From assembly GCF_002906655.1 (NCBI RefSeq), contig NZ_CP025795.1, positions 1,116,001 to 1,180,000 on the forward strand: DNA of 64,000 bases. Direction: 5' to 3'. How positions within the stretch are numbered: the stretch's first letter is position 1; every line of letters starts with the position of its first letter. The DNA comes from Vibrio hyugaensis (GTDB lineage Bacteria; Pseudomonadota; Gammaproteobacteria; Enterobacterales; Vibrionaceae). This document shows positions 6,987 to 21,929 of this stretch, in pieces. The position numbers were made by a program, and so were the translations under genes. The notes beneath the pieces are model-generated. The model saw only the letters and a program-made list of their open reading frames with translations. It had not been told where the DNA came from and made no database searches.

Positions 6987-8000
6987 TCACGAAGTGCTGG
7001 ATGCGTTCAGCGCAATCGACTGTTTATACACTTTAGGAGATAACCCGGACACTCTTTTAAAGGCGCGCGAAAAGTGCGAAATACTGGTGTAGCCAAGTTG
7101 ATTGGATATATAAGTGAGAGAGTGTCCTTCTTCCATCAATTCACAAGAAACAGAGAACATCAATGACTCTTTAATATGTCGAAAAGAAGTGCCTTCATTC
7201 TTTAACTTTCTTTGAAAGGTTCGAACAGAATAGCTCAGCAACTGAGCCGCTTCTTCTATCGACAAATTACGCTCTCGGACATAAGGGCGCAGGAGTTCAA
7301 ACACGCTATCGGTAAAACTTGTATGCCACTGAATCTGACTCGGTTCAGCGCCTAACTGTGAGTCCGATATTTGGATTGGTACGTTAAGAATGTCCGCGGG
7401 AATGTAAACACCGGTCTTCTCTTGACCCACAAATATCTGGCACTGGCTAGGAACAACACTTTTTACGATATCGCTGTTGCTGCCTTGCAGGCGTACCTTG
7501 CTTGGATACCAAGCGGTTTTGGTCAAAATGCTAATGAGCTCAATGATGTAAATCACAGCAAATGCTTCAGACCAGTTAGCGATTTGCGTGTCTTTCTGTT
7601 CCGAATATCGACAGAACCAGGCATGACCATGATGGGTTTCGAAAGAAACGTTACTGCCAGGCGAGTCTAAACTGAAGATTTCATCGATGTGCTGCATTGA
7701 ATCGCCGATGGTTTGAAATGGCACAAACTGATGCAAGACATTGGGTATGACGCGGCGGCGAAAGACTAACACCAATAAGTCGGTGAATTTCGTTATACCA
7801 AGTTGGGAAGAAGTAAGATGAATCAAACGTTTTATCGATTCAGACGGAATGTAGTCGCTCTCGGTTTGGAATAAGTCCGCTGGTAAGCCAGCGTCACTCA
7901 GTAGCTTATGCTTGTCCAAGCCATAGTCGGCAAAGACTTCGACTAGGATTCGAGCATAGTTAGTCTGAATGACAGGTAGATGAAACGTTTGATTTGGCAT
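6987..8000 (-). CDS. AraC family transcriptional regulator
   Basis: A 337-residue protein from ATG 8000, preceded by AAGGAG at 8012-8017. An in-frame TTG at 8027 is less likely because it overlaps the end of the upstream repeat. The N-terminal two thirds match the Arabinose_bd-type ligand domain seen in OruR/ArgR-like AraC proteins (ILVEVFADYGLDKHKLLSDAGLP). The C-terminal about 100 residues hold two helix-turn-helix motifs: LSIEEAAQLLSYSVRTFQRK and the second ending YTSISHFSRAFKRVSGLSPK. The effector is not evident. The upstream region is occupied by a 249-bp fold-back element starting 19 bp before the ATG, which must lie in the promoter or leader. Confidence 0.9.
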   Translation of the reverse strand: MPNQTFHLPVIQTNYARILVEVFADYGLDKHKLLSDAGLPADLFQTESDYIPSESIKRLIHLTSSQLGITKFTDLLVLVFRRRVIPNVLHQFVPFQTIGDSMQHIDEIFSLDSPGSNVSFETHHGHAWFCRYSEQKDTQIANWSEAFAVIYIIELISILTKTAWYPSKVRLQGSNSDIVKSVVPSQCQIFVGQEKTGVYIPADILNVPIQISDSQLGAEPSQIQWHTSFTDSVFELLRPYVRERNLSIEEAAQLLSYSVRTFQRKLKNEGTSFRHIKESLMFSVSCELMEEGHSLTYISNQLGYTSISHFSRAFKRVSGLSPKVYKQSIALNASSTS

Positions 8001-8018
8001 TTTAGCGGATACTCCTTG

Positions 8019-8267
8019 TATACCCAAGTAACCTCTAAGTGCGAGGTTCAGCGAGAATGGCTTGGTTTGTAGACGCGGCGACGATTTGAAGATCTAGTGG
8101 TGCTACAAAGTATACATACCAAGCCAACTCGCCCTTAGGGAGCGTGTCACTGACTTGATTTCCGCGTCAAACAACTGGGAAATAGCTAGCTATTTCCCAG
8201 TTGCTTTCCTTGAACTTAAGCCAGTGACAGCGCTCTGAATCCGGCACTAAGAGGTCACTTGGGTATA
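8019..8267. repeat. Fold-back (MITE-like) repeat with 24-bp terminal inverted repeats
   Basis: The left end TATACCCAAGTAACCTCTAA (continuing GTGC) at 8019-8042 is repeated inverted at 8244-8267 with two mismatches in 24 bp. Inside are nested inverted repeats: TGGCTTGG near the left against CCAAGCCA; GTGTCACTGACTT against AAGCCAGTGACA; and a perfect 32-bp palindrome at 8172-8203. The whole can fold into one branched stem. It carries no ORF. The termini begin with TA, so a TA target is possible. Similar palindromic intergenic elements are familiar to me from Vibrio genomes, but I cannot name a family with certainty. Confidence 0.7.
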
Positions 8268-13714: not shown

Positions 13715-15055
13715 CTATAACCTAAGCTTGGGAGCGAGCGGCTTTCTCGAAGGTTGAGCCTGCAAAAACGGTAATAACAACAAGCCAATAACGGCTGCGC
13801 ATACCGAGATAGTGATAAAGAATCCAGTCCAGCTGTACCCTTCAAGAATCAATGCCAATGGGTAGCCAGAAAGTGCAGCTCCCATATAAGCAAACAAACC
13901 AACAAAGCCCGTGGCAGCACCAGCAGAATCTTTGTGTGAACATTCCGCTGCAGCCATGCCAATCAACATTTGTGGACCAAACACAAAGAAGCCAATCGAG
14001 AACAGTCCCGCAGCTTGGAACGCGAAGTTGGTTAAAGGCATTAACCATAGTGCTGCGACAGATAGGAATATACCTGCGGCAAACAATAGGTTCATTGGGC
14101 CTCGGTTACCACCGAACAATTTATCCGAGCCCCAACCAGCCACTAGAGAACCAACAAAGCCACCGATTTCAAACATCGACAATGCAGCGTTGGCATTGAT
14201 TAGGCTGTAGTGGTGTTGTTCTGTCAGGTACAAGTTACCCCAGTCATTGATGGCGGTGCGGACGATGTAAACCAGTACATAGCTGAATGCGAGCAACCAA
14301 ATGTACTTGTTGTTGAACACGTATTGTTTGAGGATTTCTTTGTAGTTAAGACCTTGTCCGTGATTCTCTTGGGCCAGTTCTAACTTGTCATCACGCCATT
14401 GACCAACCGTTGGCAGTCCTTGAGTGGTCGGTTTATCGCGCAAGCGCCAACAAACAATGACACCAAGAATGACGCCGATAATGCCCGGTACGATAAAGCC
14501 TTCTCGCCAGCTGTAATGGAACGTAAGAAATCCAACAAGTAGGGGAATTAAAGCGCCGCCTACGTTATGGGCGGTGTTCCAAATGGCCCACAAGAAACCA
14601 CGTTCTGAGCGCGAATACCAAGTGGTAAGTAACTTAGAGCACGAAGGCCAACCCCAACCTTGGAACCAAGCGTTCATTACCCAAAGTGCTGCGAGTGCAA
14701 CCAAAGAGCTAGAGAAGCCAAATGCGATATTGATCAAGCCCGTCGCGATTAAACCGACACCCATGAAAAAGCGAGGGTTAGAACGGTCAGAAATGGTGCC
14801 CGAGATAAACTTCGATAAACCATAGGTGATGTAGAAAAGCGTACCAATCATACCGATATCGGCTTTATCTAAACCTAAATCAGCAATCATCGCGGGTGCG
14901 GCGTAGTTAAATGTTTTGCGAGTGAAGTAAAAGCCCGCATAACCGAGATACATGCCCAGCATGATGTGCAGACGCCAATAACGATAACGTTCATCCACTT
15001 GGTCTTTACTAAGGGGAGCTTGGTTGTAGCTCGGAGACTGAAATAATCCAAACAT
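13715..15055 (-). CDS. uhpC: Hexose-phosphate sensor, MFS protein UhpC
   Basis: A 446-residue 12-helix major facilitator protein of the organophosphate:phosphate antiporter family. Family marks include YAGFYFTRKTFNYAAPAMI, GKF-type loop ISGTISDRSNPRFFMG and GWGWPSCSKLLTTWYSRSER. It lies 5 bp after uhpB in the order uhpA-uhpB-uhpC, so it is assigned as UhpC, the transporter-like receptor that senses external glucose-6-P and activates UhpB at the inner membrane. It could still have weak transport activity. Compared with the UhpT of this window it has a shorter tail. Confidence 0.9.
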   Translation of the reverse strand: MFGLFQSPSYNQAPLSKDQVDERYRYWRLHIMLGMYLGYAGFYFTRKTFNYAAPAMIADLGLDKADIGMIGTLFYITYGLSKFISGTISDRSNPRFFMGVGLIATGLINIAFGFSSSLVALAALWVMNAWFQGWGWPSCSKLLTTWYSRSERGFLWAIWNTAHNVGGALIPLLVGFLTFHYSWREGFIVPGIIGVILGVIVCWRLRDKPTTQGLPTVGQWRDDKLELAQENHGQGLNYKEILKQYVFNNKYIWLLAFSYVLVYIVRTAINDWGNLYLTEQHHYSLINANAALSMFEIGGFVGSLVAGWGSDKLFGGNRGPMNLLFAAGIFLSVAALWLMPLTNFAFQAAGLFSIGFFVFGPQMLIGMAAAECSHKDSAGAATGFVGLFAYMGAALSGYPLALILEGYSWTGFFITISVCAAVIGLLLLPFLQAQPSRKPLAPKLRL

Positions 15056-15060
15056 GCTCG

Positions 15061-16560
15061 TTACACCTTAGGTAATGTGATGGCGATTTGTGTGCCATCC
15101 ACATGATCGTTCAAAGAGTAGATATACATTTTGCCGCCGAGTGCTTGTACGCGTTCTTGCATGCCACGAACGCCCATGCCTTTCATGCAGTCTTCGGTTT
15201 TGAAACCAATGCCGTTGTCTGCGATGTTCAACGAAATGTTCTCGTCAATAGACAGCTCGATAACAATAGACGTCGCGTTCGCATATTTCGCAGCGTTGTT
15301 TAACGCTTCTTGGCACAAACGGAATAGGGTGACTTTTAGCGTGTCGCCTAAAGACTCATAGTCACCTTGCCAATCAAGCACAACGCGAGTGCCATGATTG
15401 TCGAACTCCATTTCACGGGTTAACTGGTGAACGGAGTCTTTCAAATCCAGATCGTCGAGCATTTTCGGACGCAGTTTGCTCAGCAAATGTTTGGTGGTGT
15501 CATAAACATTGAGTGATAGGTTTTCAATCATGTCGGCACAGCGTGTGTTCATTTCGGCATTATCAACCCGCTTAATGATGCTGGCTTGGGTACGAATCGC
15601 TGTGATGTTCTGACCAATTTCATCGTGCAGTTCTCTTGCCACGTCACGACGCACCGACTCTTCCGCTTGAATGAGTTTTCGAGACAAGGTTTGGTTTCTC
15701 GTCAGTTCGCCACGTAGCTTTTGGTTAAGATCTTTTTGTTTCTGCACTGCTAAACCGAGCATGATGCCCGTTAAGGTTTGTGCAGAAAGGGACAACAGCA
15801 GGTCAGTGATTTCTAGGTTCGAAACACCGCTTCGCGCAGCGATCAAGGCAATACTGTTTAACATGGTCGCAAGCAGTGCACCTTGCCAGCCGTAGCGTAG
15901 CGCAAGCACAATGATTGGGATTGCCATGCAGAAAGGCGCGAAGCGTTTTAACTCATCTGGCAAGCTGGTTTGAACCAAAATGCTGGCAATCAACAGCACG
16001 CTATAAAGCAGAATATGACGAACTTTGAATTGGACTTCGTTCGCCAGTAGATTCGAGGTCAAAGGCGACCAAGGGCTCTGGAAGAGATAGTTCCAGAGTA
16101 GGTAACACATTGGCAGAATCAACAAACCGCCAGCAATACTTGCCAACCATGCCATGTATACAGATTGAACATGATAACCAACCGCAAGTACGTTAATGCA
16201 AGACGTAACGAGCAACACGACCGCCATCACCGCTAAGTGCTGATTCTGATCGCCTCTGTAATAACGCTTAGCAAAGTACGCTACGGGAATGCTCAATACG
16301 CTGGCCACCAACACCATCAACCATTGTGGCTGTTCAAGAAGTAGAGCGAGTGCAACGGTTAATCCCCATTCGGCGAGGTAAATCGTTGCCCAATACTTTG
16401 TGCGCGTGTGCAGTGTTAATCCCAAACGCAACGCGAAGGGGAACAACAAGATCGCAAGCTCGGCATCGTTCACAAAGTAATAAGCGATCACCCAAAGACA
16501 GAACCACGAGCATCCTGTCATGAATAAACCGCAAATAGAGGTGATGGTGTAGCTACGCAT
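15061..16560 (-). CDS. uhpB: Sensor histidine kinase UhpB
   Basis: A 499-residue kinase. The first about 270 residues are very hydrophobic with about eight membrane helices (MASE1-like). The HisKA_3 box is VARELHDEIGQNITAIRTQ with the phosphorylated His, followed by the N box LCQEALNNAAKYANA and the G box DNGIGF. The product phosphorylates UhpA under control of UhpC. Its start overlaps the uhpA stop by one base (TAATG), so translation is coupled. Confidence 0.95.
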   Translation of the reverse strand: MRSYTITSICGLFMTGCSWFCLWVIAYYFVNDAELAILLFPFALRLGLTLHTRTKYWATIYLAEWGLTVALALLLEQPQWLMVLVASVLSIPVAYFAKRYYRGDQNQHLAVMAVVLLVTSCINVLAVGYHVQSVYMAWLASIAGGLLILPMCYLLWNYLFQSPWSPLTSNLLANEVQFKVRHILLYSVLLIASILVQTSLPDELKRFAPFCMAIPIIVLALRYGWQGALLATMLNSIALIAARSGVSNLEITDLLLSLSAQTLTGIMLGLAVQKQKDLNQKLRGELTRNQTLSRKLIQAEESVRRDVARELHDEIGQNITAIRTQASIIKRVDNAEMNTRCADMIENLSLNVYDTTKHLLSKLRPKMLDDLDLKDSVHQLTREMEFDNHGTRVVLDWQGDYESLGDTLKVTLFRLCQEALNNAAKYANATSIVIELSIDENISLNIADNGIGFKTEDCMKGMGVRGMQERVQALGGKMYIYSLNDHVDGTQIAITLPKV

Positions 16561-17168
16561 TAAAACGACTCTTGCGAGAACAGTTTGGCGAGTTCAACGT
16601 TGTTCTTTACGCCTAGCTTATCCATGGCGTTTGCACGGTGAACGTGAACGGTTTTATGGCTTAAGCCAAGCTCAGTGGCGATTGACTTCACATCCAAACC
16701 ACGAGCCAGCAATTGACACACTTCGTTTTCTCGGCGAGTCAATTGAGTCAGCGTCGCCGCTTTGTCACTTGGTGTCGCAAGCTTCAACGCAATATCGGGC
16801 GTTAGGTAACAACCGCCCGATGCACTGGTTCTTACGGCTTGAATCAACTCGTCAGGGCTACAACGTTTACTTAGGTAACCTTTTGCGCCGAGTTTAAGTG
16901 ACTTTTCAACCATTGCTGGCGAGTCATGTACGCTCAACATGACACAAGCAATACCAGAAGGGATTTCGGAGAGTAGGGCAAGCCCACTTTCGTCTGCCAT
17001 CGAGATATCTAGGATAACCACATCTGGCTTGCACGCAGGTAATCCCACTCGAGCTTCTGCTACCGAGCTAAATTCACCTACAACATTCATGTCTGTCTCA
17101 AGGCTCAACAACTGAGCAAATCCAGAACGAACAATGACATGGTCATCAACAAGCGCTACGTTAATCAT
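16560..17168 (-). CDS. uhpA: Response regulator UhpA (NarL/FixJ family)
   Basis: From ATG 17168 the product is 202 residues, beginning [16 protein letters not shown] as in known UhpA; an in-frame TTG four codons upstream is unlikely. The receiver has the acidic pair DD at 8-9, the phosphoacceptor Asp54 in VVILDISM and Lys in GAKGYLSKR. The C-terminal LuxR-type HTH is [20 protein letters not shown] then [20 protein letters not shown]. It should activate uhpT, whose upstream dyad at 18860-18876 suits this type of regulator. Confidence 0.95.
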
Positions 17169-17318
17169 CTTAAATACCAAACTTCAGCAATACACAAACG
17201 AAAATGAGCTCAATACCAATTGGCGCTAGATAGGAGACAATCCTTTGGCACCTTTGATATAGAGAGCTCAATAAAAACCTACAATGATACTAAATTGACC
17301 AAGTTTATTTAATGATCT

Positions 17319-17345
17319 AGCGCGCTTTGACTAGCAAAGCGCGCT
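17319..17345 (-). terminator. Hairpin between uhpT and uhpA
   Basis: Perfect arms AGCGCGCTTTG and CAAAGCGCGCT with a 5-nt loop, 7 bp beyond the uhpT stop. The downstream tail on the minus strand (AGATCATTAAATAAA) is poor in U, so it may attenuate rather than fully stop transcription into uhpABC, or stabilise the uhpT mRNA 3' end. Confidence 0.6.
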
Positions 17346-17351
17346 GTTTGA

Positions 17352-18749
17352 TTAAGCTTGGTTTTCTGCGAGTTCAAGCTTCTTCTTGTTTTGACGAATC
17401 TTTTTCTCTTCTGCGATAGCAACGAAAGCAAGCAAAACAATACAAATCATTGCTGAGGTATCTAGGGCAGCGAACGTGCCTTTCCAACCCGTTAGACCAA
17501 AGATTGGCGTACCGTCTGCAATCATACCTAGACCCAACTTCGCGAAGCTGTCACCAATTAGGTAAGCGAATGTGCCTTTTACGCCGTCTGCCACACTGAT
17601 TGCTTTTTTAGGAACAAAGCCAACCGCAGCAACACCGATAAGCAGTTGAGGACCAAACACTAGGAAGCCAATAACAAATAGCGACGCTAGGTACATGAAC
17701 TCACTGGTTGCGTGTTGGTAGAACTCAAGTGATACGATGATCAAACCTAAAGAAACACAAGCCACTAGCGCACGGCGACCATTTGCAAGGTCAGATAGGT
17801 AACCCCACATCAACGTACCCACAAGCGCACCCACTTCGAATAGGGTAAAGCCAGAGATTGCTGCTTCTTTTGATAGACCAAGTTCTTGGTATGCGTAAAC
17901 CGTTGACCATTGGTCGATACCGATACGCACGATGTAAAGGAAGATGTTTGCAAAGCAAAGTAGCCAGATCACTTTGTTTTTCAGAACGTACTCAACAAAG
18001 ATCTCTTTCTTAGTCATTTGATTGCCTTCAGCCGCTTCGTCTTCTTCGCTGACTGCTTCATCAAATAGCTCTTCTACTTTACCTAGACCGTAGGCTTCCG
18101 GAGAGTCGTTACCATAGCGCATACCGATGAAACCAACGATGATCGCAATGATAGAAGGGAACACGAACATGCCGATTACGTGACCGTCGAACAAGTAGTT
18201 AGCACCAAACAGAGCCACACCTGCAGCACCTGCGCCACCTACGTTGTGAGACATGTTCCAAAGACCTAGGTAAGAACCACGCTTGTTACGCGGTGTCCAT
18301 TTAGTAATGGTCGAGTAACTAGAAGGACCACCAGTACTTTGGAAGAAACCACTCAGTGCATAGAATGCGACCATCATGAACAAGCTCGCGCTACCGCCAC
18401 CCATGCTGAAGCTGAACCCAAGCATCGCCAGACCAGAAAGGATAAGCATAAAAGGGAGGAACTGCTTGGTATTTTTGCCATCGGCGTAGTAGGAAACTAC
18501 GGTCTTACCGATGCCGTAAGTAATCGAGAAACCCAGACCAATCAAACCTAGATCGGTCATCGACAAACCGTAAGTTGAAATCATGTCGTTTTGCGCGACG
18601 TTGAAGTTTTTACGGATCAGGTACATGGTCAAATAGCCAATAAATACCACTAGGTAGGATTGGATAAATGGTTTGAACCACATTTTTCTACGTACTTCGA
18701 CAGGAAGATCGAGGGTAGGCTTCCGGACTTGTTCAAGGAATTTTAACAT
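17352..18749 (-). CDS. uhpT: Hexose-6-phosphate:phosphate antiporter UhpT
   Basis: ATG 18749 with AGAGAG upstream is preferred to a GTG ten codons earlier. The 465-residue MFS protein has 12 membrane helices and the organophosphate antiporter marks [34 protein letters not shown] and [19 protein letters not shown]. It exchanges external hexose-6-P (glucose-, mannose-, fructose-6-P) for internal phosphate in the inner membrane. It lies first in the minus-strand series uhpT, uhpA, uhpB, uhpC, manA. A glutamate-rich insertion ([10 protein letters not shown]) is in the central loop. Confidence 0.95.
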
Positions 18750-18810
18750 CGTGAACTCTCTTGTATTAGTGTGATGCACTTGCGTGCTCGCTTTCTTTTA
18801 GCTGTCGGCG

Positions 18811-19051: not shown

Positions 19052-19393
19052 ATGATACGAAAGGTGATTATATTAACGATGCTAATCTCTGGCAGTGCAT
19101 CGGCAAATTTACATATTTGGAAAGAGAGAGAGTTCACCGCATATACCGATATGACGGAAGTTCAATTTCTTTTAAAGAATAAGTACAACAAAAAAGCGGA
19201 TTATTATCTCAGAATCGATGATAAGACGTTCAACAGTAAAATAACACTCGATCCTCAACAAGAAGTGTCATTAAACGTTCGAGTCAAAACACCTGCGGGC
19301 CAAATAAGCAAAAAGAAAATTTGTACTCGAATGGTGAATAACACACCAAATAGCTACGAAGTGTGTTCTAACATCCGGTTAAAAAGGTATTAA
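19052..19393 (+). CDS. Small exported protein of unknown function (cluster gene 1)
   Basis: A 113-residue protein with signal peptide MIRKVIILTMLISGSASA. The mature part, about 95 residues, alternates hydrophobic and charged residues like a beta sandwich (VQFLLKNKYNKKADYYLRID, ITLDPQQEVSLNVRVKTPAG) and has two Cys near the end (ICTRM, EVCSN) that could form a disulfide. The pattern is reminiscent of an Ig-like or pilus-chaperone-like domain, but I do not recognise a family. AAGG precedes the ATG. It leads a four-gene set with gaps of 2-41 bp. Confidence 0.75.
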   Translation: MIRKVIILTMLISGSASANLHIWKEREFTAYTDMTEVQFLLKNKYNKKADYYLRIDDKTFNSKITLDPQQEVSLNVRVKTPAGQISKKKICTRMVNNTPNSYEVCSNIRLKRY

Positions 19394-19396
19394 AGC

Positions 19397-19855
19397 ATGA
19401 TCACGATTGCTAGCAAGCGTGTTCTGTATTGTGGCTTGCCTTTGTTACTGCTGAGTTTTGGTGTTATCGCAAATCCTATTCCCAGTGTTTCAAACCCATC
19501 GGGTACAGACAGAATCAGAACGTCTGAAGGCGCAACCTGTGAGCAAGCCGTGTCAACTGGTAAAACCTTTCAGGTCGGTACGTATGGCGCAACGGGTCAA
19601 GAAGACAGTGATAACTACTACAACAACTATTACCAGCAAAACCAAGATGAGGCGGGCGTATACGCGTCACTGACTTTTCAATTCGGTGGTGAGGAACGAG
19701 TCGATTGTACTCGTCTTTATGAATTCGAATTGCGAGAGAGAAAACGGCAGGAAGAACTCGCTCAGGCAGAGCACGAGCTGAAGCTTTTGCAAATTCAAGT
19801 AGAAACACAAAGGCTCAAGAGAATGAAGCAAACTCAAACCACTTTTTCGGAGTGA
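19397..19855 (+). CDS. Exported protein with C-terminal coiled coil (cluster gene 2)
   Basis: A 152-residue protein with an N-terminal hydrophobic signal (LYCGLPLLLLSFGVIA) ending before NPIPSV. The middle is polar with a Tyr/Asn/Gln stretch (DNYYNNYYQQNQDE), then a beta-like GVYASLTFQFGG. Two Cys (TCEQ and DCTR) probably pair. The last 45 residues form a charged helix likely to be a coiled coil. No family recognised. It begins 3 bp after gene 1 and ends just before gene 3, whose ribosome site overlaps its stop. Together these features suggest a periplasmic or outer-membrane assembly component; this is inference. Confidence 0.75.
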   Translation: MITIASKRVLYCGLPLLLLSFGVIANPIPSVSNPSGTDRIRTSEGATCEQAVSTGKTFQVGTYGATGQEDSDNYYNNYYQQNQDEAGVYASLTFQFGGEERVDCTRLYEFELRERKRQEELAQAEHELKLLQIQVETQRLKRMKQTQTTFSE

Positions 19856-19857
19856 AC

Positions 19858-20361
19858 ATGAAACTCAAGAAACGACCGGTCCGCATTGCGTTGTTAGCAA
19901 CCCTTATTGCTGCGACTGGTGTACAGGCTCAAGCGCTTAAAGATAAGGACGAAGCTACGAGTGACGACGTCACGTTTAGTGCAACTATTCAAGAACAATG
20001 CGGCATTGATGTCACCATCGCGAACGCTGATCTTGCTTTTGGTGAGCAATACAACGATTCCAAAGCTCAAGTTAAGTTGATTAATAACGAAGACGACGGA
20101 AAAATTGAGCTGAGCCTTGAACCATTAAAAGAGCATGAACTCGGTAACCATATTGATAAAGAAGATGTGTGGTTTAAATCCGGCGGTGTCCATGAAGAAA
20201 ATATGAATGCTAAAGATTGGGAGTCAGGCATAGAATATTCCCGTGATGACATTCGAAATAATAACCTAGTTGACTTGTCTGCTCGAATTAATGTGGATGA
20301 AAGCAATTTAGATGCGGACCAATATACATTAGTCACTAATTGGGTTATCGAGTGTGATTAA
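19858..20361 (+). CDS. Exported SCPU/pilin-like protein (cluster gene 3)
   Basis: ATG 19858 follows CGGAG at proper distance, better than the GTG two codons upstream. The 167-residue product has a signal peptide ending GVQAQA. The mature part begins with DVTFSATIQEQCGIDV then NADLAFGEQYND; the pattern Cys...Leu-x-Phe-Gly near the first strand recalls the spore-coat-U (SCPU) and fimbrial subunit families. A second Cys is near the C-terminus (VIECD), positioned for a disulfide between terminal strands. It is a paralogue of the next gene (shared C-G-I-[DE]-V, W-x-x-G-I-E, [LR]-S-A-R-[IV]-[ND]-[VM]). The structural resemblance is weak evidence. Confidence 0.75.
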   Translation: MKLKKRPVRIALLATLIAATGVQAQALKDKDEATSDDVTFSATIQEQCGIDVTIANADLAFGEQYNDSKAQVKLINNEDDGKIELSLEPLKEHELGNHIDKEDVWFKSGGVHEENMNAKDWESGIEYSRDDIRNNNLVDLSARINVDESNLDADQYTLVTNWVIECD

Positions 20362-20375
20362 TAATAAATTAATGA

Positions 20376-20402
20376 AAGCCCTTTAATAGGGCTTGTTTTC
20401 TT
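20376..20402 (+). terminator. Terminator-like hairpin overlapping the ribosome site of the next gene
   Basis: Arms AAGCCCT (20376-20382) and AGGGCTT (20388-20394) with a 5-nt loop are followed by GTTTTCTT and then directly ATG 20403. The AGGG of the 3' arm is the only Shine-Dalgarno candidate for that gene. The hairpin may therefore act both as attenuator and as a translational gate. Confidence 0.6.
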
Positions 20403-20867
20403 ATGAAGCAATTTCTAATTTCATTATTAGCAGTCGCGCTGTTAAGCGTGAGCTCGCTTTCTCGTGCGGCGCAAGTTCATTTTCATAAACATATCGATGA
20501 GTCTTGTGGCATTGAAGTGATTAAAGAGCGTGGCGAAATTCATTTCGGTCGAAGATTTGGTAGTGATTCACTAACGCTCAAACTACTTGCGAATAACCGA
20601 GATAAGCGTCTCTATTTTCGTTTGTCCTATTTCAATATCGATATGGGTGCAGAGACCATCAGTCCGGAGCGTATTCACTTTAAAGTGGATACGCCGGAAC
20701 GTTTTGTCGGTAATCTTGACTACTGGCGGCAAGGCATTGAGCTAAACCTTGAGCAATTAGATTCGAGTAAAGAAGTTCGAATCAGCGCCAGAGTTGATAT
20801 GAACGAGTATCAGATGCCTGCAGGTGAGTTCTCTCTCAATATGGAATGGCACTTAGATTGCTATTAA
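20403..20867 (+). CDS. Exported SCPU/pilin-like protein (cluster gene 4)
   Basis: A 154-residue protein with signal peptide ending SLSRAA. The mature chain starts QVHFHKHIDESCGIEV and continues GEIHFGRRFG, paralleling cluster gene 3; YWRQGIELNLEQLD, VRISARVDMNEYQMPAGEFS and the terminal WHLDCY also align with it. One Cys near each end suggests a terminal disulfide. It differs in having a more basic, aromatic-rich body. The start codon abuts a terminator-like hairpin, so it may be made at a lower or conditional level than gene 3. Function unknown. Confidence 0.75.
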   Translation: MKQFLISLLAVALLSVSSLSRAAQVHFHKHIDESCGIEVIKERGEIHFGRRFGSDSLTLKLLANNRDKRLYFRLSYFNIDMGAETISPERIHFKVDTPERFVGNLDYWRQGIELNLEQLDSSKEVRISARVDMNEYQMPAGEFSLNMEWHLDCY

Positions 20868-20918: not shown

Positions 20919-21929
20919 ATGATAGCTTGCATGCCCAATACAGATATTCCTTTGGTTCACTCGGAAGAAGTAAAGCTTTTTGCCACTATGCTCAATGAGC
21001 TTGATGGAGATATTCACTCATTACTTGAATCCGCCCGAATGCCACAGGATATCTTGTCTAACCAATCCCTTGACGCGTTTGTTCCCGAGAGCGCGCTAAA
21101 AGCAGTCTTCCAAACGTTAGGTGAACGCGCATCACCAGAGAAGTTTGCTTTGCTCACTTGGACGCTTTGTCACGACATCTATGTGCCTAGATTTGCGAAT
21201 CAAATTACCCTGACGCATTCGCTTAAAGCAGCATTAGAAGAGGTATCGCAGCTGCTCAAACAGATCTCCGATAACGTCAGTATTTCGGTCCAATCTCGCG
21301 GCGGAAAATGGTGGTTAGTAAGAGAAAAGCAAAACGCTGAGAAAGAGTGGTTTCGTTATGCAGAAATGTTCTCTGCAATGTTCATGAATGAACTGCTCAA
21401 GAGGCTAGTTGGTTCGAAATGGAAACTGGCAGAAGTCGGGATTCAAGACGTAGAAGCAGAGCCATTCAATCAATTACCGGGTATGAAGAGCGCGCAGTTC
21501 TTTACTGGTAGACCGGTTACTGCAATCTCAATCCCTAATGAATGGATTAACAAGCCGATAGCTTATATTCCATCTCAGACGGTTCTGGATAAAGGCTCGC
21601 GAGGTGATGATGATAAGTTCAGTAACGCCTTGGCTAGGGCGCTAACACCTTATCTATCCATGGGTAAAATTTCTATTCAGTTTGCTGGGGAGCTTATTGA
21701 TATGAACGCTCGCACGATCCAAAGACGACTAGCAAGCGAGAGCACGTCTTACCGCGAAGTGATTGAAAGCTTAGTGCTTAAACAAACGCTTGAACTCTTG
21801 GCTGACCGAGACCTCAGCATCACGCATATTGCGCTCAAAACAGGCTATTCAGACTCTGCCCACTTCACTCGTGCGTTTAAGCGGATGATGAAAATGACGC
21901 CTAAAGCGTATCGCCAGTCTTTATCTTAA
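20919..21929 (+). CDS. AraC family transcriptional regulator
   Basis: A 336-residue protein; ATG 20919 is used, with ATG 20931 (MPNTDIP) possible since neither has a strong ribosome site. The N-terminal domain (LLESARMPQDILSNQSLDAFV) is the Arabinose_bd type, distantly like the regulator at 6987-8000. The C-terminal HTH pair is ISIQFAGELIDMNARTIQRR and the segment ending SDSAHFTRAFKRMMKMTPKA. It lies 51 bp after the four-gene exported cluster in the same direction and may control it. The effector is unknown. Confidence 0.88.
   Translation: MIACMPNTDIPLVHSEEVKLFATMLNELDGDIHSLLESARMPQDILSNQSLDAFVPESALKAVFQTLGERASPEKFALLTWTLCHDIYVPRFANQITLTHSLKAALEEVSQLLKQISDNVSISVQSRGGKWWLVREKQNAEKEWFRYAEMFSAMFMNELLKRLVGSKWKLAEVGIQDVEAEPFNQLPGMKSAQFFTGRPVTAISIPNEWINKPIAYIPSQTVLDKGSRGDDDKFSNALARALTPYLSMGKISIQFAGELIDMNARTIQRRLASESTSYREVIESLVLKQTLELLADRDLSITHIALKTGYSDSAHFTRAFKRMMKMTPKAYRQSLS

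Follow-up and report, generated by a model that had tools for sequence, protein, structure and literature searches.

What might be built by four tightly packed genes for small exported proteins that belong to no recognised family? This question is raised by a locus in the window, by which we mean the whole 64,000-nucleotide stretch of the Vibrio hyugaensis genome analyzed here (NCBI RefSeq assembly GCF_002906655.1, contig NZ_CP025795.1, positions 1,116,001 to 1,180,000). A preliminary description, made from the sequence alone, had taken the four genes for a subunit-plus-assembly set, and this reading is supported by the lack of any strong match to a known family, by the co-conservation of the genes, and by a pilin-like model of gene 3 together with a chaperone-like model of gene 1. 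We propose, with a probability of roughly 0.5, that they form an usher-less assembly module which builds a surface-exposed or envelope-spanning structure. The tight packing is borne out by gaps of 3, 2 and 41 nt between consecutive genes and a further 51 nt to the AraC-family gene behind them, all on one strand, and signal-peptide-like N-termini, recognised by eye in all four proteins, agree with their description as small exported proteins. The module sits on the second contig of a two-contig 5.6-Mb genome, and the closest named gene 3 protein (98%) comes from Vibrio owensii. The features are as follows, with the evidence in brackets.

19052..19393, + strand: gene 1, an exported all-beta, immunoglobulin (Ig)-like protein of 113 aa and predicted single-domain periplasmic chaperone (open reading frame (ORF), family alignments, AlphaFold2, fold matches)
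19397..19855, + strand: gene 2, an exported protein of 152 aa, signature gene of the module and predicted outer-membrane or periplasmic partner (ORF, conserved alignments, phrog_37374, OmpA relatives)
19858..20361, + strand: gene 3, an exported pilin-like subunit of 167 aa from its ATG with Cys48 and Cys166, the proposed major subunit (ORF, AlphaFold2, pilin matches)
20376..20394, + strand: hairpin with a T-rich tail in the interval between genes 3 and 4, a proposed partial terminator or mRNA-stabilising element (RNA folding, z -2.6)
20403..20867, + strand: gene 4, an exported subunit of 154 aa, paralogue of gene 3 (ORF, paralogy, family alignment)
20919..21929, + strand: AraC-family regulator gene, a neighbour outside the conserved module (HTH_18 profile match, distribution among loci)

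An alternative start of gene 3 is the GTG at 19852, inside the end of gene 2, and a promoter scan of the locus performed no better than on shuffled sequences.

The profile searches uphold the claim that the four genes belong to no recognised family, as strong matches were limited to phage families of unknown function and to the OmpA domain carried by some relatives. No Pfam or NCBIfam model, including those of curli and other catalogued secretion systems, matched genes 1-4 at its cut-off, and the SCPU profile did not match genes 3 or 4 at E<=1, so that the SCPU membership suggested for these two genes is not supported; profiles gave no match for SCPU, fimbrial or curli membership. Searches of sequence profiles against the PDB with five alignments returned nothing credible for genes 1, 2 and 3 or for gX, an additional gene introduced below. 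For gene 4, a match to EtpA (E 7e-6, no stretch passing on its own) and matches to many nanobodies were set aside as repeat or composition matches. Similarly, phrog_658 matched gene 3 weakly and was dropped as its family because none of eight module phages matched it, as compared with 10 of 14 control genomes. Among the titles and abstract openings returned by literature searches, none deals with the module, which, on the databases and literature searched, is categorically new as a gene system.

Co-conservation of the four genes proved strong. Within the genus, 16 of 148 genomes, the own one included, encode relatives of gene 3, and the order 1-2-3-(gX)-4 is kept across several different chromosomal contexts, which argues against a chance arrangement. 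A gene 2 profile matched 42 of 296 genomes of the family and 14 of 394 at the level of the order, where two matches outside the window's family had good scores and one was marginal; at the level of the class, the own genome stood alone among 369. We opened 41 bacterial loci (handles beginning with L), namely the window, the loci of 15 gene 3 relatives, all 17 divergent places found by the gene 2 profile and eight more, leaving out eight further window-type places from the family-level scan. Gene 1 lies beside gene 2 at 41/41 of these loci (as a 61-aa remnant in L040), a count that is partly circular because the profiles of both genes included many of the counted rows, and a subunit resembling genes 3 and 4 was found at E<0.05 in 39/41, with L110 and L116 each holding a candidate subunit ORF unassigned by profile. 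The subunit matches at far loci are independent, since that profile was made of window-type rows and five database homologues only: it matched in 17 of 19 far loci, 14 times below E 0.001 and more weakly in L107, L111 and L113. In six far loci (L105-L109 and L112) the subunit lies some genes away from genes 1 and 2. A further 18 named loci comprise 17 from Vibrio or Aliivibrio and one weak Bacteroidetes match. One Vibrio (L040, 8476-11385) holds a decaying copy with a gene 1 remnant, the subunit genes and the AraC gene in pieces and gene 2 intact; the module seems to be dispensable there.

The remark that no usher or known chaperone accompanies the cluster stands as well. A search of the ORFs of the 41 loci for homologues of the divergent usher of this genome gave none at E<=0.01, and PF00345, the profile of PapD-type chaperones, did not match gene 1 at E<=1. 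The single domain of gene 1, with two Cys, gave a sub-threshold Ig match (FixG_C, E 0.002), and its AlphaFold2 model (predicted local distance difference test score, pLDDT, 86.8) has Caf1M as its best PDB matches, lying nearest to the N-terminal domains of fimbrial chaperones while not clear of other Ig-like folds. Because an usher is absent from the locus and the putative chaperone is not two-domain, we do not file the module as a chaperone-usher system; it may well work like one.

The proposed cargo is represented by genes 3 and 4, whose paralogy, noted in the preliminary description, is confirmed by 25% identity (E 1.4e-10) and by a family-to-family hhalign probability of 99.9%. The model of gene 3 (pLDDT 84.6) is nearest to chaperone-usher pilins, again not clear of other Ig-like folds, and TasA is among its fold rows; structure prediction, run for genes 1 and 3, hence gives chaperone N-domain-like and pilin-like folds with other Ig-like folds close by. 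Each subunit carries two Cys, as had been reported, placed one near the mature start and one at the C-terminus rather than paired at one terminus; gene 2 likewise has two. In L113, L115 and L137 the Cys pairs are gone from genes 1, 2 and 3 alike, save for a single Cys left in one L115 subunit and a counted Cys of L137 that lies, by eye, inside the signal peptide; we count this concerted loss as one event because the three loci form one clade. In 16 of 22 window-type loci (L034-L039, L043-L046 and L138-L143, hence missing from the window, L032, L033 and L040-L042), an extra exported gene of ~135 aa, gX, lies between the two subunit genes, with two Cys in nearly all members and only sub-threshold Pfam matches in the eight scanned. 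Moreover, seven far loci encode an exported protein of ~300 aa, the C-terminal part of which aligns to the local subunits (hhalign 82%, E 1.1e-5, a modest match), in a two-part layout resembling tip adhesins; a direct profile test of these proteins failed, the best real domain scoring 8.9 against 12.8 for one of 350 shuffles. Finally, RNA folding better than in shuffled sequences (z<-2) was found after gene 3 in 16 of 30 loci, which are related and hence not 30 independent events, as opposed to 1/30 after gene 1, 1/30 after gene 2 and 2/23 after gene 4, with stem sequences that vary by lineage.

Gene 2 is predicted from its sequence to contain a beta-hairpin between C48 and C104 and a C-terminal coiled coil, and it shows an alternation peak at residues 88-96. 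Its family corresponds to phrog_37374, matched by 16 of 16 members (best 5.3e-12), with residues 25-124 of the window protein aligned to positions 12-102 of 111. Six relatives have the length to accommodate an OmpA domain (PF00691) at the C-terminus, and the three of them tested all contain it; the window protein has no Pfam match and thus no such domain, the common part being a ~130-residue hairpin and coiled-coil family without Pfam match. The OmpA-domain relatives point to the outer membrane as the place of gene 2.

Putting these elements together, we envisage that gene 1 would act as a one-domain Ig chaperone in the periplasm, holding gene 3- and gene 4-type subunits of an incomplete-Ig, pilin-like fold. 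Gene 2 would reside within the outer membrane or at its inner face, where its disulfide-closed hairpin might insert or oligomerise while the coiled coil extends into the periplasm; in some relatives, the OmpA domain would grip the cell wall. Subunits would be led through a ring of gene 2 protein, or onto it, to polymerise, possibly by strand exchange into a surface-exposed fibre, or to cap. Gene 3 would supply the bulk of the subunits, with gene 4 serving as a minor one or as the one at the base or tip. The most detailed version of this proposal, which we put forward tentatively and consider possible rather than probable, is an undescribed envelope machine in which donor-strand fibres folded by a half-chaperone are threaded through, or anchored on, a ring of the 15-kDa gene 2 protein, sometimes fused to OmpA. 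In vibrios this machine would serve as a surface structure, and in phages that are not related to one another (T4-like, T5-like and others) as a means of altering the surface of the host cell during infection.

The same components could instead form a static envelope tether, that is, a periplasmic Ig scaffold which gene 2 joins to the outer membrane and the cell wall without any export or fibre. The OmpA domain of gene 2 relatives, the small size and exported nature of all proteins and the failure to find an exit pore of a known type at the loci are all compatible with such a scaffold. We nevertheless regard it as unlikely, as the two or three subunit genes at many loci, the 300-aa two-part proteins and the hairpin after gene 3 fit a polymer better.

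Further insight comes from phages. Using window gene 2 in tblastn, we obtained matches in 188 of 50,697 phage records (183 Vibrio, 3 Erwinia and 2 Klebsiella), and gene 2 of phage K478b matched 196 (185 Vibrio, 6 Klebsiella, 3 Erwinia, 1 Stenotrophomonas and 1 Raoultella); gene 1 and gene 3 of phage K249, which has an annotated anti-repressor, each matched 179 Vibrio phage records. Many of these records are near-copies. Four Streptococcus phage matches in the K249 gene 1 search were counted as chance (the two inspected cover 38%, E 0.03), and no relative came up when viral contigs were scanned with the bacterial gene 2 alignment, the patterns probably being too specific. Some of the phage records, OZ195910 and MG649966 among them, give gene 2 a late start or have other hypothetical ORFs overlapping it.

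We opened ten phage loci, from Schizotequatrovirus, Cetovirus, Queuovirinae, Henunavirus, Miamivirus and phages not classified further, and found gene-1-like and gene-3-like genes beside gene 2 in all ten (L145 and L146 by eye). T4-like and T5-like phages are lytic. The order is 1-2-3 in L065, L067, L070, L145 and L146, and 3-1-2 in L066, L068, L069, L071 and L072, where the gene behind the trio encodes a small lipoprotein, assigned to phrog_16916 in L066, the only locus tested for this. In K478b (L066), phrog_37374, phrog_25455 and phrog_25895 are neighbours and correspond to genes 2, 1 and 3. The sequence link between phage and bacterial proteins is strong for gene 2, moderate for gene 3 (96% in hhalign; eight phages matched by hmmsearch at E 2e-9 to 0.025) and weak for gene 1 (hhalign 6%), for which hmmsearch matched phage 1.081.O at 2.6e-8 and an Erwinia phage at 0.014, the other six giving values above 0.05 or nothing; in these six the gene 1 call is based on place, size and a C-terminal Cys motif. 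In a viral fold library, however, the third and eighth best rows for the gene 1 model are proteins of Erwinia phage pEp_SNUABM_01 (111 aa, E 6e-4) and Vibrio phage Ceto (100 aa, E 5e-3). The annotated genes that immediately precede gene 2 in these two phages have the same lengths, the correspondence being by phage and length, not by accession. A gene 1 relative also gave a weak match to T4 gp30.8 (E 0.07), which was rejected, and the T4 annotation table shows nothing like the trio. In the gene 2 tree, which has many long branches, phage and bacterial rows are interleaved; beyond this interleaving we claim neither a direction nor a number of transfers.

The most likely role of the trio in phages is to alter the host cell surface during infection, receptor masking being one example. 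It could follow that the whole system is of a phage type, serving superinfection exclusion, with vibrios keeping related copies that protect them against phages. The presence of the trio at every opened phage locus and the interleaved tree accord with this, as does the genomic setting: in L066, L068, L069, L071 and L072, five phages of different genome sizes, the trio follows large phrog_10818 proteins, of which the two inspected lack a signal peptide and by eye resemble tail fibres, and in Ceto genes annotated as holin and peptidase lie a short way downstream of the trio. T5 llp, beside the receptor-binding gene of that phage, is a precedent for receptor masking. On the bacterial side, however, none of five proteins matched PADLOC-DB at E<=0.01, the neighbours at the loci listed look by eye like ordinary chromosomal rather than prophage genes, and four loci (L110, L119, L121 and L136) adjoin EAL-domain genes (three far loci) or an HD/GAF gene (L136), neighbours which fit adhesion or biofilm formation, hinting at control by cyclic-di-GMP. 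A phage-type exclusion module as the explanation of the whole system appears improbable to us.

Export could also be provided in trans, the module supplying accessory subunits and a half-chaperone to a conventional usher encoded elsewhere. A PF00577 usher match was indeed present in 25 of the 39 genomes with opened loci. The genome of the window contains three usher-like genes (two on its first contig, one on its second at a great distance from the module), so that use in trans is possible there. Among the remaining 14 genomes, the own usher as query found none and CooC_C two, leaving 12 of 39 without an usher by three probes, which could miss divergent ones. Where a PF00577 place shares the contig of the module, it is never nearer than ~70 kb (nearest in G015), and gene 2 accompanies gene 1 at every opened locus. 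Dependence on a distant usher is, on these grounds, quite improbable. Within the window genome, a separate chaperone-usher locus with a divergent usher is found at L144 (G000:C1:2929788-2932184).

Least of all do we favor periplasmic metal handling by gene 1 as an N-terminal-His, histidine-brace-like beta-sandwich, a very improbable reading in spite of a His that closely follows the presumed signal cleavage site (27 of the 28 gene 1 rows by script, the remaining one by eye), given that only 4/8 phage rows have it by script (some doubtful, the T5-type ones lacking it at the mature start by eye), that no copper protein leads the gene 1 fold rows and that no metal-transport partner genes were seen. 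The conserved His as such could be structural or metal-binding.

The AraC-family assignment of the gene following gene 4 holds (HTH_18, 9.3e-19); its membership of the conserved module does not, because a relative comes right after the module in only four of 16 loci (the window, L032, L033 and, as fragments, L040) and stands upstream of gene 1 in two others (L042 and L043). A second AraC-type gene in the window (6987-8027) is related to it (E 3e-39), and at 13715-18779 a histidine kinase and a response regulator lie between two transporters of the major facilitator superfamily (MFS) type, by eye resembling a uhp hexose-phosphate arrangement.

If the proposed usher-less assembly is true, Gram-negative cells place pilin-like subunits on their surface by way of a far smaller outer-membrane partner. 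The module is present in nearly 200 phage records, T4-like and T5-like included, and would then be the first chaperone-and-subunit set in such phages known to us, no exhaustive search having been made. The proposal also turns the reason for which these phages encode exported proteins with Cys pairs, in 5/10 loci beside large tail-fibre-like genes, into a testable question, and offers leads on the function of three phage families labelled unknown, phrog_37374, phrog_25455 and phrog_25895.

Among known systems, the module shares with chaperone-usher pili (FimC/FimD/FimA, Caf1M/Caf1 and CsuC/CsuA/B) an exported Ig-like protein of putative chaperone fold encoded beside subunits of putative pilin fold, a two-part tip-adhesin-like protein (here in seven far loci), a hairpin after the proposed major subunit and a subunit Cys pair. 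It differs from them in having no usher at the locus, one chaperone domain instead of two, no Pfam match or credible PDB sequence match, and copies in phages, and a 15-kDa gene 2 protein would take the outer-membrane place. TasA/TapA and the archaeal thread and bundling pili, as far as the partial sources go, polymerise incomplete beta-sandwich subunits without an usher, as is proposed for the module; they belong to single-membrane or archaeal envelopes and have no outer-membrane partner. The OmpA family (PF00691) is shared through the domain of the three long gene 2 relatives tested and differs in being absent from window gene 2. T5 Llp superinfection exclusion similarly involves an exported phage product encoded beside tail and receptor-binding genes, which is a single lipoprotein, unlike a chaperone-subunit set. 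The phrog_37374/phrog_25455/phrog_25895 trio agrees with the module in its gene 2 match and in its adjacency in K478b, and departs from it in the 3-1-2 order of 5/10 phage loci and in the small lipoprotein gene that follows gene 2.
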